A stretch of DNA of 36,103 nucleotides from Clostridiales bacterium. GTDB taxonomy: Bacteria; Bacillota; Clostridia; Lachnospirales; Lachnospiraceae. Under the pieces are notes generated by a model. That model was not told the DNA's origin and made no database searches. It saw only the letters and a list, made by a program, of their open reading frames with translations. The stretch lies in NCBI GenBank assembly GCA_023663185.1, contig JAMPHY010000029.1:1-36103 (forward strand), written 5' to 3'. The position numbers and the translations under genes were made by a program. Numbering within the stretch: position 1 is the first letter of the stretch; the number at the start of each line of letters is the position of its first letter. Shown here in pieces: positions 21,486-24,845 of this stretch.

Positions 21486-22229
21486 TTATTCATAATCAAA
21501 TGTCTTTAAAAATGCCTGCGCCCTCTCGGTAGCAGGCTGCCTGAAAAATTCTTTCGGGCTGCTGCTTTCCTCAACAATCTTCCCATTCTCCATAAACAGC
21601 ACCCTGTCTGCAATCGCTTTGGCAAACGCCATCTCATGCGTTACAATCAGCATTGTACTGCCCGCCTTTGCGAGTGAAAGAACTACTTCTAACACTTCGC
21701 GCACCATTTCAGGATCTAGAGCCGCGGTAATTTCATCTAACAATAGGATTTCAGGATTCATAATCAAGGCACGTACAATTGCGATACGCTGCTTTTGACC
21801 ACCCGAAAGCTGTCTTGGATAATCGTCTCTTCTGTCTGCAAGCCCGACTCTTGTAAGAAGCTCCATAGCCTCTTTCTCAACATCTTGCCGATTTCTTTTC
21901 TGTACCTTAAGCGGCGCCAGCAATATGTTTTCTATTATTGTTTTATGCGGAAATAAATCATAGTTTTGAAAAACCATGCCGATTTTCTGACGCATTTTAG
22001 AAATATTTTTCGCTTCTTTTCTAACCTGTTCGCCGTTTAAGATAATTTCTCCGCCCTGAATATCTTCTAATGCGTTAATGCAGCGCAAAAGCGTACTTTT
22101 TCCGCAGCCTGACGGACCGATGATAACGACCACCTCTCCCTTACCTACTTCAAGGCTGAAATCGTCAATAATCTCACTACTTCCATAAGTTTTCTTTATA
22201 TGATTGATTTCTAAAAGCGTCTCTCCCAT
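21486..22229 (-). CDS. Polar amino acid ABC transporter ATPase
   Basis: A 247-residue ATPase of the GlnQ/ArtP/TcyC group that energises import. It has Walker A GPSGCGKST (38-46), Q-loop MVFQNYDLFPH, signature LSGGQKQR (141-148), Walker B ILLLDEITAALDP (161-173, E166) and the switch H198. ATG at 22229 has AAGGTGG eight bases upstream and begins two bases after the stop of the permease gene; the earlier GTG at 22241 lies in the permease frame and is rejected. It is the last gene of the four-gene importer operon. A run of nine T on the transcript side near 21445 is the only terminator-like feature after it. Confidence 0.93.
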   Translation of the reverse strand: MGETLLEINHIKKTYGSSEIIDDFSLEVGKGEVVVIIGPSGCGKSTLLRCINALEDIQGGEIILNGEQVRKEAKNISKMRQKIGMVFQNYDLFPHKTIIENILLAPLKVQKRNRQDVEKEAMELLTRVGLADRRDDYPRQLSGGQKQRIAIVRALIMNPEILLLDEITAALDPEMVREVLEVVLSLAKAGSTMLIVTHEMAFAKAIADRVLFMENGKIVEESSSPKEFFRQPATERAQAFLKTFDYE

Positions 22230-22231
22230 AC

Positions 22232-22906
22232 TTATGACCACCTTTTCTCAAGATATCCCGCCAGCCTGCTGACCGGCCAACAGATTAAAAAATATAACAA
22301 AAAAACTACTGCAAACAAGCCAAACGCCGCATTGGGTGAAGTCCTCCTGTTTGCTTCGATAATCTGCTGTGCTACTTTTAATACTTCCACTATTCCAATC
22401 ATCATAACAAGGCTTGTCGTCTTAATCATTCTTGTAATCAGATTGATGGAAAGCGGAAGTAACCGCCGAACCGCCTGCGGCAGAATGACGTGCAGGTAAA
22501 TTTTAGGCTCGGTCAATCCCAGCGCCTGCGCACTCTCATACTGTATCTTAGGAATACTGATAAGCGCGCCGCGCACCAAATCTCCCATTTCCGCTACGCC
22601 CCAAAAGCTGAAAACAATAATCGCGGAATATTCTGCCGACAAATTCCAGCCAAATACCCTTGTCGTACCAAAATATACGATAAATAACAGTACCATCTGC
22701 GGCATGATTCGGACAATTTCCAGATATATACGGAAAAGCGCTTTTAACAGCTTATTTTGGGAAGTCATAAGCATTCCCATCACAAGCCCAAGCACAATAC
22801 TGATTCCAACAGAAATCAGGCTTATGCGGATTGCAACCCAGAGACCACTAAGCAGCCGCAGAAAATTTTTTCCTTTAAATAAAACATCAATCCCCAAATT
22901 CTGCAT
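22232..22906 (-). CDS. Polar amino acid ABC transporter permease (second subunit)
   Basis: A 224-residue His/Glu/Gln/Arg-type permease with about five membrane helices and the EAA coupling loop ESAQALGLTEPKIYLHVILP, which contacts the ATPase. It pairs with the next permease to form a heterodimeric channel. ATG at 22906 has AAGGAG eight bases upstream and overlaps the end of the other permease gene by 20 bases; the longer frame starts with TTG and is not supported. Confidence 0.93.
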   Translation of the reverse strand: MQNLGIDVLFKGKNFLRLLSGLWVAIRISLISVGISIVLGLVMGMLMTSQNKLLKALFRIYLEIVRIMPQMVLLFIVYFGTTRVFGWNLSAEYSAIIVFSFWGVAEMGDLVRGALISIPKIQYESAQALGLTEPKIYLHVILPQAVRRLLPLSINLITRMIKTTSLVMMIGIVEVLKVAQQIIEANRRTSPNAAFGLFAVVFLLYFLICWPVSRLAGYLEKRWS

Positions 22907-23546
22907 GCCGCAATCTCCTTTCAACAAAACTTCCCAATATGGACACCGGAAGCAGCATAATCAAGTAAAAAATAACTAGCAACGTTAAACATTCAACAGT
23001 CTTGGCGTATATGCCGATAAGGTCTTTTGCCGTAAACATCAAATCCATCAAGCTTATTGTAGAAAACACGCTTGTTTCTTTTAACAAAAATATTATATTG
23101 GCAAGAAATCCGGGTACGCTCGAAGCTATTGCTTGTGGCAGAATAACATATCTAAACGCCTGCATTCTGTTCATACCAAGACTCTGTGCACTCTCTGACT
23201 GAATCGGGGCAATATTTTCCAGCCCGCTCCGAAATGTTTCCGCCATATATGCGCCGCCCAATAGCCCAAGTCCTAAACACCCGCAAACTTGCGCTGAAAC
23301 TCGGACTCCGATTTTGGGAAGTGCAAAATATATAAAAAATAACTGTACCAAAAGAGGCGTGTTACGGAATACCTCGATATAAAATCTCGTAATCTGGCGC
23401 AGAATCGGTATATGCAAATGAATTATCACCGAACATAGTATGCCTAAGATAAACGCCAGCAGAATCCCTAACCAGCCTATTTTCAGCGTGAGCAGCAACG
23501 CATCTTTATAACGCGGCAAATATGATATCATTACTTCCCAATCCAT
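22887..23546 (-). CDS. Polar amino acid ABC transporter permease (first subunit)
   Basis: A 219-residue permease of the same family, with the EVFRNTPLLVQLFFIYF motif typical of amino acid importers and the EAA loop ESAQSLGMNRMQAFRYVILP. It has about five membrane helices. ATG at 23546 is preceded by GAGGTAGG; it lies eight bases after the stop of the binding protein gene. Tight spacing and overlap show one operon. Confidence 0.93.
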   Translation of the reverse strand: MDWEVMISYLPRYKDALLLTLKIGWLGILLAFILGILCSVIIHLHIPILRQITRFYIEVFRNTPLLVQLFFIYFALPKIGVRVSAQVCGCLGLGLLGGAYMAETFRSGLENIAPIQSESAQSLGMNRMQAFRYVILPQAIASSVPGFLANIIFLLKETSVFSTISLMDLMFTAKDLIGIYAKTVECLTLLVIFYLIMLLPVSILGSFVERRLRHAEFGD

Positions 23547-23554
23547 AACCTACC

Positions 23555-24463
23555 TCAATTAACCACGCCGCCTTCAACGACCAGTGTATCCTCATAATCT
23601 GCACCATAGGTATCAAGAAGGGTTGCTTCATAATCTGCATGGAAGAATTTTTCTTCGCCGAGGGTTTTGATTTCATCATTCAGCCAGTTAAGCAGGCTTT
23701 CGTTGCCTTTCGTTACTGCGGGAGCGATTGTGTCTGCGCTGCCGAGCGATGGTATTCCGACTTCATATCCCGGATTTTCAATAGCAAATGCGATAACTTC
23801 CGTGTTGTCGTTTGCCCATGCCACGCCGTTACGGTTCTCAAATGCGGTTTTGGCTTCTGCGTAAGCGTCATATTTCTGCAGTTTGATGTCGGGATAGTTT
23901 TTCTCCAAATAAGTCTCAGCGGTTGTTCCCGAAATAACAATCACTTCATCGTCCGCGCCAACGTCATCAAGACTGTAAAGCACCTCATCATCATGAGAAA
24001 CAACTCCCAGCGCTACATTCATATACGGAAGCGCGAAATCAACCTCCTGCGCACGCTCCTCTGTGACTGTGAAATTTGCCAGAATAATATCTACTTTTCC
24101 CGTCTGTAGATACTCGATACGATTTGCCGCCTCAGTAGATACATAATTAATTTTTACATCAAGGTCTTCACCGATACGATTACCAAAGTAAACATCATAT
24201 CCCTGATACTCGCCGTTCTCGTCTACATAACCGAAGGGGCTTTTGTCAGAAAATACGCCAATATTAATTGTTCCACTTTCCTTAATCTCATCAACCGTCC
24301 TGTATACTGTGTCATTATTTACCGTTTCTGTAGTATTGTCGGTGGGATTTGTCAGCGCTATTGTGTCTGTATCGTTTTCAGAGCCGCAGCCCGTCAGCGC
24401 CGACGCTGCTAATGTAAATGTAAGAGCAAGAGCTCCTAGTTTCTTAAATGATAAATGTTTCAT
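23555..24463 (-). CDS. Amino acid ABC transporter binding lipoprotein, cysteine- or acidic-amino-acid type
   Basis: A 302-residue periplasmic-type binding protein (SBP family 3) held to the membrane as a lipoprotein: signal peptide with lipobox ALTGC (C26). A Thr/Asn-rich linker follows, then the two-lobed domain from about residue 60 (GTINIGVFSDKSPFGYVDEN) with AANRIEYLQTGKVDIILANF and FALPYMNVALGVVS. From memory of the family, these segments recall the PEB1/CjaA group, whose members bind aspartate/glutamate or cysteine. The Cys-rich leader frame upstream favours cystine or cysteine, but that is inference. ATG at 24463 has GAGGAGG seven bases upstream. First gene of the importer operon; its long leader is described separately. 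Confidence 0.88.
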   Translation of the reverse strand: MKHLSFKKLGALALTFTLAASALTGCGSENDTDTIALTNPTDNTTETVNNDTVYRTVDEIKESGTINIGVFSDKSPFGYVDENGEYQGYDVYFGNRIGEDLDVKINYVSTEAANRIEYLQTGKVDIILANFTVTEERAQEVDFALPYMNVALGVVSHDDEVLYSLDDVGADDEVIVISGTTAETYLEKNYPDIKLQKYDAYAEAKTAFENRNGVAWANDNTEVIAFAIENPGYEVGIPSLGSADTIAPAVTKGNESLLNWLNDEIKTLGEEKFFHADYEATLLDTYGADYEDTLVVEGGVVN

Positions 24464-24536
24464 AATAGTTCCTCCTCTTTTTCTGCCTGATATCCAGCAA
24501 ATTAAAATTATTTTGTTCTATATCAGAATTTGAGCA

Positions 24537-24563
24537 CAAGAAAATTGCTTCGCAATTATCTTG
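24537..24563. repeat. Third copy of the small palindromic repeat
   Basis: Arms CAAGAAAATTGC and GCAATTATCTTG around a TTC loop; only one base differs from the copy at 7446-7472. It lies between the leader terminator and the binding protein start, so on the transcript it would form a hairpin 74 bases before the ATG. Confidence 0.7.
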
Positions 24564-24577
24564 ATTTTCTATATAAT

Positions 24578-24697
24578 AAAAAAACCGAAGCATTGATTGC
24601 TCCGGGCATATGGTAAGATAGCATCTCAGATTGAAATGTCATACATCAAGTGCAACACAAAACAGACGAATGCACCAGACCATATTGATACGCCCGG
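24578..24697 (-). promoter_or_regulatory. Transcription attenuator of the amino acid importer operon
   Basis: On the transcript (minus strand), CCGGAGCA (24605-24598) pairs with TGCTTCGG (24592-24585) across a 5-base loop and is followed by seven T: a good rho-independent terminator inside the leader. An alternative helix is CCGGGCGTAT (24697-24688) with ATATGCCCGG (24611-24602), ten pairs including one G-U. Its 3' strand takes up the CCGG that the terminator needs, so the two folds exclude each other. The 5' strand of this antiterminator lies inside the Cys-rich leader frame, 14 bases after its Cys-Cys-Cys codons. The arrangement fits ribosome-stalling attenuation responding to charged tRNA-Cys. 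I see no T-box (no GGTGGNACCGCG-like sequence) and no SAM riboswitch core. Confidence 0.7.
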
Positions 24698-24756
24698 AAA
24701 CTCAACATTCGACAACAACATGCGGTTGCAGCATAGGATTTGTTTGTTCTATACAT
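24646..24756 (-). CDS. Cys-rich leader peptide (candidate attenuator peptide)
   Basis: A 36-codon frame within the leader of the importer operon. ATG at 24756 has GGGAGAAGG just upstream (AAGG five bases away), as good as many real genes here. The peptide begins YRTNKSYAATACCCRM, with three consecutive TGT codons (residues 13-15, 24720-24712), and ends SVLCCT with TGT-TGC (24657-24652): five cysteines in 36 residues, far above normal use. It covers the 5' strand of the antiterminator. Runs of one amino acid in a short frame before a matching transport operon are the mark of translation-coupled attenuation. Its stop codon is about 40 bases past the antiterminator strand, so the geometry is not a copy of the trp scheme. 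Confidence 0.65.
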   Translation of the reverse strand: MYRTNKSYAATACCCRMLSFRAYQYGLVHSSVLCCT

Positions 24757-24806
24757 AATATCCTTCTCCCTTCTCAAATATTATCTGCTCAAATCTGATA
24801 GCATTT

Positions 24807-24845
24807 ATAATAAACCTTTTTTCCTAGTATGTCAATAGGTTTATT
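24807..24845 (-). promoter_or_regulatory. Strong promoter of the importer operon with an overlapping inverted repeat
   Basis: A perfect -35 box TTGACA (24835-24830), a 17-base spacer and a -10 box TATTAT (24812-24807), with the start near 24800. A perfect 9-base inverted repeat, AATAAACCT (24809-24817) and AGGTTTATT (24837-24845), brackets the -35 box and overlaps the -10 box. This is suitable as a repressor site. Transcription would thus be controlled both at initiation and by the attenuator about 200 bases further on. Confidence 0.75.

Follow-up and report, generated by a model that had tools for sequence, protein, structure and literature searches.

The leader of a four-gene amino acid importer in a Clostridiales bacterium of the Lachnospiraceae (contig JAMPHY010000029.1) is, with a probability that we put at about 0.86, a ribosome-mediated transcription attenuator, which senses charged Cys-tRNA and controls the import of cysteine. 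The leader lies in a stretch of 36,103 nucleotides, which was analysed as a whole and is referred to as the window. An earlier prediction, made from the window alone, had already read it as an attenuator of this kind, and the Cys codons and covarying helices conserved in orthologous leaders lend support to this reading. By computation we established conservation, covariation and spacing of the leader elements, a switch point in a folding model and an association of the leader with sulfur genes.

In the proposed mechanism, RNA polymerase would transcribe the leader with a ribosome close behind, which translates the leader frame and keeps pace with the polymerase; this coupling we infer, as we do the role of Cys-tRNA as signal and of cysteine as cargo. 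If Cys-tRNA is short, the ribosome would halt at a run of Cys codons, with its front edge just short of an RNA strand that we term A. The free strand A could then pair with the emerging strand C, by which the terminator is blocked and the importer is transcribed. If Cys-tRNA is plentiful, the ribosome would advance over strand A, strand C would pair with its own 3' arm and transcription would stop. A hairpin termed B and a second pair of Cys codons probably tune the outcome once the ribosome has moved past A.

Architecture of the leader and its importer

All elements of the locus are encoded on the minus strand. The strong promoter claimed in the original prediction is present (sigma-70-type, TTGACA-17-TATTAT, 24807..24835, 11/12 consensus matches), as is the leader frame of 36 codons (MYRTNKSYAATACCCRMLSFRAYQYGLVHSSVLCCT, 24646..24756, from ATG at 24756 to TGA at 24646), which has a ribosome binding site (GGGAGAAGGA, 24761..24770) and five Cys codons (CCC and CC). 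Such a short frame with start codon and ribosome binding site is what is expected of an attenuator, and both the frame and its Cys codons are conserved in orthologues. Orthologue comparison identified the first Cys run, TGT TGT TGT (24712..24720), as the candidate sensor codons. The run is followed by the near-invariant hexamer CGA ATG (Arg-Met, 24706..24711) and by strand A (24691..24699), the 5' strand of the antiterminator, which is located inside the frame and covaries in the leaders of importers as well as of other genes. Covariation also defines hairpin B, with a 5' arm GGTGCA (24671..24676) and a 3' arm TGCACT (24649..24654) overlapping the second Cys pair (24657-24652), and strand C (24600..24608), which forms the 3' side of the antiterminator and shares bases with the 5' arm of the intrinsic terminator. 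The latter (24578..24605) consists of a stem of 8 pairs, 5 of them G-C (24605-24585), and of seven T (24584-24578), and stands before a four-gene ABC importer of the polar amino acid type, as had been described.

Some details of the earlier description required correction. An antiterminator with one strand in the frame and the other overlapping the terminator was borne out, but instead of 10 bp there are 9 pairs in the window (alignment register), of which two are G-U, and the gap between Cys run and antiterminator strand, given as 14 bases, actually amounts to 11-12 bases, counted from the final Cys codon of that run. The folding stability of the window leader showed no excess over shuffles (z 0.37). 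The strand at the 5' end of the transcript, CAGATTTGAGCA (24786..24797), is complementary to bases past the terminator (24524-24536), and close orthologues show, by eye, matching changes on both sides; this pairing could be possible only in read-through RNA. A small inverted repeat, AATTGC-GAA-GCAATT, is located 3' of the terminator (window 24539-24563) and was not seen in the other close leaders compared.

The importer is composed of a substrate-binding lipoprotein (23555..24463), two ABC permeases (22887..23546 and 22232..22927) and an ABC ATPase of the polar amino acid type (21486..22241). The best solved relatives of the binding protein are 2YJP and 1XT8 (E about 1e-66 each; next 2e-33), both of which appear in a table of PMC9824665 as binding cysteine (dissociation constants 0.026 and 100 micromolar); a passage of a review states for 1XT8 that cysteine import is not proven (PMC4178425). 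Cyst(e)ine as substrate, as originally proposed, is hence supported independently by these relatives, which suggest that the protein is a probable cysteine binder. The binding protein reached none of the NCBIfam cut-offs for a named substrate, and we therefore speak of cysteine as the presumed cargo.

The leader in orthologous importers

Orthologous importers were collected from relatives and from public genome contigs (80 of 525 relatives retained in the one case, 30 loci in the other). For distinct orthologues with 300 or more bases of upstream sequence, a leader was sought up to 500 bases before the binding-protein gene; L004, L005, L006 and L120 are outside this tally. The comparison with related operons, which had been named as a check of the original prediction, turned out in its favour, as both Cys codons and helix pairs are conserved and the latter covary. 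Of the 101 distinct orthologous importers among the matches listed, 45 carry a Cys-rich leader frame ahead of the gene for the binding protein, or 46 if L081 is included. The core of the window's leader, consisting of Cys run, Arg-Met, two variable residues, Ser, Arg or Gln, and Ala, is common to 41 of the 45 Cys-rich leaders. Cys is conserved through both TGT and TGC, and the number in the run varies (CC, CCC, CMCMC), consistent with selection acting on Cys codons. The start of CGAATG is separated from CCCRGG by 13 bases in all 32 leaders that could be scored for the exact motif, out of 38 aligned. In leaders of other genes, the same gap is 13 in 55/57, the two exceptions having 16 and 7 bases; 37/94 rows were not scored. 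Dozens of orthologous leaders thus maintain the Cys run, the length of the gap before the pairing strand and the covarying pairs, a pattern that argues for more than chance.

The other 56 of the 101 orthologues among the matches listed were counted as being without a leader before the binding-protein gene. A locus that keeps the terminator after loss of the frame or its Cys codons would speak against the attenuator; none was found when these 56 loci were searched with a model of the part following the Cys run. This model gave two matches below E 0.01 (L081 and L054), both with a Cys frame, and three at E of at least 0.25. Since only L081 and L054 matched at this level and both contain Cys, retention of the switch without Cys codons was observed in none of the orthologues. 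L081 harbours a Cys leader with core and operator (1380-1600), which was missed by the tally as it is located farther upstream than the tally window; its frame extends beyond the usual stop and its terminator appears decayed, and perhaps this leader is being lost. L054, tallied as lacking, has a leader of metY about 1.5 kb upstream of the importer. In L129 and L135, also tallied as lacking, the leader stands before a permease that comes first in the operon (L208 in G209 and L194 in G357, respectively). Upstream of four importers without Cys leader (L102, L109, L110, L136) we noticed the apparent end of a LysR-type gene, and L094, L102 and L110 contain another short Cys-rich frame (NTCFCC).

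The residues of the core bear on an alternative in which a ribosome with the CCxRM peptide senses free cysteine or a sulfur compound and then sets the same RNA switch. Nascent-peptide arrest can serve as a sensor, as exemplified by TnaC, and the near-invariance of Arg-Met after the run would be in keeping with it. However, number and spacing of the Cys residues vary (CC, CCC, CMCMC, WC), as do the residues before the run, and RNA pairing accounts for the conserved Ser-Arg/Gln-Ala, given that the exchange of Arg for Gln goes along with a compensated pair change. The Arg codon, in addition, is CGA in 36/38 importer leaders and in 72/76 pattern-fitting rows (of 94) from other leaders, which points to the nucleotides or the codon instead of the residue. 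CGA is the rarest Arg codon in the 11 window genes (10 of 193), and none of the supported helices accounts for the constancy of this codon; it may act as a slow codon or have a role at the RNA level. We consider peptide arrest very improbable and prefer stalling at Cys codons for want of charged Cys-tRNA.

Covarying helices and modelled ribosome positions

Pairing was analysed in an alignment of 38 importer leaders (A1), from which L121, L123, L128 and L133, which are Cys-rich with another core, were excluded along with L100, L104 and L052. The consensus strand A, CTCCCGGGCA, pairs with strand C, TGCCCGGGAG, in 97.9% of cells. Six of the ten pairs have changed on both sides, and none of 500 shuffles attained the observed score for covariation; slid controls were 16 to 58% paired. 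In one group of leaders CCCAGGC is matched by GCCTGGG, and it is there that the peptide has Gln in place of Arg. Hairpin B, near the end of the frame, is 88.6% paired, its covariation score likewise unreached in 500 shuffles. Both helices covary again on 94 rows of leaders of other genes (A2, fitted to the model described below). The A2 counts include one reverse-strand match (L150, E 0.0085). Three matches without Cys leader (L209, L211, L213; E 6e-4 or worse) were kept out of A2, as were importer leaders that A1 contains and loci on the same contig. As A:C covaries and overlaps the terminator stem, terminator and antiterminator are mutually exclusive. Two protector hairpins were rejected. 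Pairing of CGAATG with CATTCG looked promising in the closest leaders; it showed no covariation and is broken in L038, L041 and L044. An A:A' hairpin, 86.5% paired and conserved, did not covary beyond shuffles.

The overlap of strand C with the terminator also bears on the question whether the leader acts on translation, or through its own translation on mRNA stability, instead of on transcription termination. Precedents would be the Cys frames of Actinobacteria described without terminator hairpin in a part of PMC1262725 and the translational route cited for mycobacterial polycysteine frames (Canestrari 2020, as cited in a passage of PMC13236596), and the 5'-end pairing past the terminator could affect stability. 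In the importer leaders, by contrast, a terminator-like end was found by pattern in 40/45 (the other five were assigned by eye), its 5' arm being the covarying partner of strand A, and the start of the binding-protein gene in the window is located about 110 bases past the T-run and hence outside the switch. Either of these routes appears highly improbable to us.

We folded 41 leaders (the 38 aligned ones as well as L052, L100 and L104) with a ribosome at each codon, employing an equilibrium model with an assumed footprint, in which 12 bases behind to 16 bases ahead of the first P-site base were kept unpaired. When the A site held the final codon of the run, A:C was favoured in 30/41 leaders and at +1 in 22/41, but at +2 to +11 in 0/41, the terminator being favoured instead; 11/41 leaders did not favour A:C even at the run. 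Median values for antiterminator versus terminator were 0.89 versus 0.03 at the run and 0.00 versus 0.75 five codons later. In the model, the conserved spacing together with the assumed footprint thus sets the switch point at the end of the Cys run.

How termination comes about at high cysteine had been conceded as a weak point of the original prediction, and the model removes this difficulty in part. A ribosome at least two codons past the run covers strand A, and A:C is then favoured in none of the 41 leaders, but with the ribosome at the stop codon 18/41 still favour it, including the window, in which A:C is favoured again from codon 27 through the stop. Without any ribosome, A:C was favoured in 26/41 leaders, and the model predicts that an untranslated leader would mostly be read through. 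Given these 26/41 and 18/41 leaders, the off state should need a ribosome on strand A at the time the terminator is made. In terms of the model, it might be reached by a ribosome closely trailing the polymerase or by a trapped fold that is invisible to equilibrium calculations. In truncated transcripts, moving the ribosome from the run to the stop slightly raised the pairing of strand A (32/41 leaders; mean 0.57 at the run, 0.66 at the stop), which is a weak effect.

Leaders and candidate operators of other sulfur genes in Clostridia

A covariance model was built from the 38 importer leaders and searched against genome samples of the family, the order and the class, which overlap. The window's genome contains a single match, and its two metY/metB-type genes have no leader, as judged by eye. 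The family sample gave 68 places in 53/397 genomes (E up to 0.01), of which at least three are without Cys leader. Matches were found in 27/392 genomes of the order sample, two other families included, and in 13/391 genomes of the class sample (E up to 0.001), which include families of other orders. We named the genes downstream of 93 non-training matches by patterns written after inspection of the proteins. The most frequent is metY (42), followed by genes of the cystathionine gamma-synthase type (11), MetQ (8), importer-type permeases (5), MetN (4), GST-like proteins (4) and M20 peptidases (3); six were not named. Single cases are a cysteine binding protein, cysK, sulfopropanediol dehydratase, metK, a JAB peptidase, LysR, another binding protein, a cyclase, an HD-like and an SDR protein. 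When representatives were checked with NCBIfam and Pfam, O-acetylhomoserine sulfhydrylase and cysK scored above cut-off, MetQ, MetN and the gamma-synthase below. The presence of Cys/Met genes among these targets, a conserved Cys-codon run and a binding protein nearest to cysteine binders together suggest that the leader attenuates genes related to its own sensor codons.

Sulfopropanediol dehydratase was identified by NF048011 (1398 bits versus a cut-off of 1000). Its gene in L183 (599-3061) is preceded by a Cys leader at 363-510, and sulfonate breakdown may be under cysteine control. The leaders before MetN-like genes in L182, L228 and L233 have few Cys and several Met codons (e.g. MCMRRM); these leaders may sense methionine too. 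The GST-like family with leaders (L154, L179, L184, L207) was assigned by Pfam for L184 and by likeness for the rest, and the M20-like peptidase family (L205, L237, L238) by likeness; a hint of roles in sulfur supply may be seen here for both families.

Within a window of 12 codons, 92 of the 93 other leaders have at least one and 76 at least two Cys, and 91/93 have a start codon with a loosely defined ribosome binding site, counts that are biased upward because the frames were picked using start site, Cys count and Arg-Met. Automatic choice of the frame gave a start in only 65/93, and TGTGTATGTGT is also open as CVCV. Since the first model includes the Cys columns, a second one was made from the bases after CGAATG only, i.e. 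without the columns for Cys, Arg and Met. It matched 51 places in 39/368 genomes, mostly shared with the first sample, all of them within the list of the first model and 10 of them training leaders. At 50 of the 51 places the leader frame has at least one Cys codon; the remaining one (G119) is without leader.

The conservation of the leader at the RNA level could also be that of a riboswitch or a T-box-like RNA that holds a reading frame incidentally, and T-boxes are a usual solution in Firmicutes according to a passage of PMC2965389. Against this, Rfam matched neither the window leader nor any of 20 other loci, and Cys is kept through TGT as well as TGC in frames that have, with the above bias, a start and a loose ribosome binding site. 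The structure compared by alignment was that from the Cys run onward. For T-boxes in particular (RF00230), nothing above the gathering score was found at the window leader. The window's genome does contain six T-box matches elsewhere, three of them over the cut-off, none of which precedes a cysteine gene. They are located on contigs C22, C53, C4, C2, C41 and C54 (L141-L146), by eye before apparent pheS, valS, metG, tyrS, trpE and aspS, respectively. We regard an RNA of this type as barely credible and return to a translated leader that would be read by the ribosome.

The promoter of the window carries an imperfect palindrome over its -35 box (CCTATTGACATACTAGG, 24823..24839, minus strand), a candidate operator for an Rrf2-family protein. 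The palindrome CCTATTGACATASTAGG occurs with at least 13/17 matches before 72/92 leaders versus 0/91 control stretches inside the downstream gene, and before 38/41 importer leaders. It is also found in 19/66 importer rows outside the leader list, some of which are duplicates of leader-bearing loci. The window holds the only exact copy in its genome, and two more places have two mismatches. In seven importer loci and in 8/55 other loci, the leader is flanked by a divergent sequence typical of Rrf2-family starts. L042 and L064, in which no leader was seen, retain operator and Rrf2 gene, the latter confirmed by Pfam. The Rrf2 homologue of the window's genome is unlinked to the importer locus. Loci that illustrate these observations on operator and Rrf2 are the window (24823-24839), L034, L036-L039, L041, L042, L044, L064 and L219. 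The operator CCTATTGACATAGTAGG is probably a site for the adjacent Rrf2 protein (L034, L037, L042). With an operator before most leaders and Rrf2 genes in the neighbourhood, many operons are probably under two controls.

Amino acid control in Firmicutes is associated above all with T-boxes and riboswitches. In enterobacterial attenuators of the trp/his type, a ribosome stalled at the sensor codons leaves one strand free for pairing with the 5' arm of the terminator, and the textbook trp leader terminates if untranslated. The Clostridia leader would share this logic of freed strand and terminator arm but differs in the read-through without translation that was modelled in 26/41 leaders. Among the closest systems is uORFC-8-2 before cysS of Rhodobacterales, which is likewise predicted to be a ribosome-mediated transcription attenuator and combines tandem Cys codons with an intrinsic terminator, as described in a part of PMC8632094. 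According to the same part, it occurs in Alphaproteobacteria, only before cysS and with its Cys codons inside the first stem, whereas here the first Cys run precedes strand A and is not part of any supported helix, and cysS is absent from the named downstream genes. The leader peptides of Mycobacterium, Propionibacterium acnes and Bifidobacterium longum also combine Cys runs, short frames and cysteine genes; they differ in a run near the stop codon and in a conserved terminator hairpin not having been found by the authors (a part of PMC1262725), and later work on them is cited as translation attenuation (Canestrari 2020, in a passage of PMC13236596). Firmicute leader peptides that act on termination, as is proposed for the window leader, are Rli60 of ilv-leu in Listeria monocytogenes (a part of PMC5864092) and the His leaders of bacilli (a part of PMC2965389). 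Judging from these parts, both differ in belonging to bacilli, not Clostridia, and in their codons and scope: branched-chain codons and one operon for Rli60, His codons and two hisS-related paralogues for the others. A literature search, which covered few subscription journals, yielded no report of this Cys-leader element of Clostridia. As there is neither an Rfam family nor such a report, we call the Cys-leader transcription attenuator of Clostridia apparently new, although its kind is known. The use of one conserved core across a Cys/sulfur regulon of Clostridia is apparently new as well.

Beyond the single locus, we propose, tentatively and as a possibility that may well fail, that Clostridia possess a general switch for sulfur amino acids in the form of one mobile leader type, in which a Cys/Met run is followed by CGA ATG, strand A, hairpin B and a terminator. 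It would couple Cys-tRNA, and perhaps Met-tRNA where Met and Cys alternate, to import, synthesis and sulfonate use, together with an Rrf2-family repressor; the leading ribosome would stay near RNA polymerase, and CGA would be a built-in slow step at the switch point. The polymerase of Bacillus subtilis is said to outrun ribosomes (a part of PMC9226507), and a Cys attenuator in Clostridia, which needs a ribosome near the polymerase, would hence provide a natural test of coupling in this phylum. Furthermore, the leaders suggest cysteine as cargo for a large family of importers, flag sulfonate and methionine genes as possibly controlled by cysteine and would make a regulon of sulfur amino acids readable for gut and rumen bacteria.
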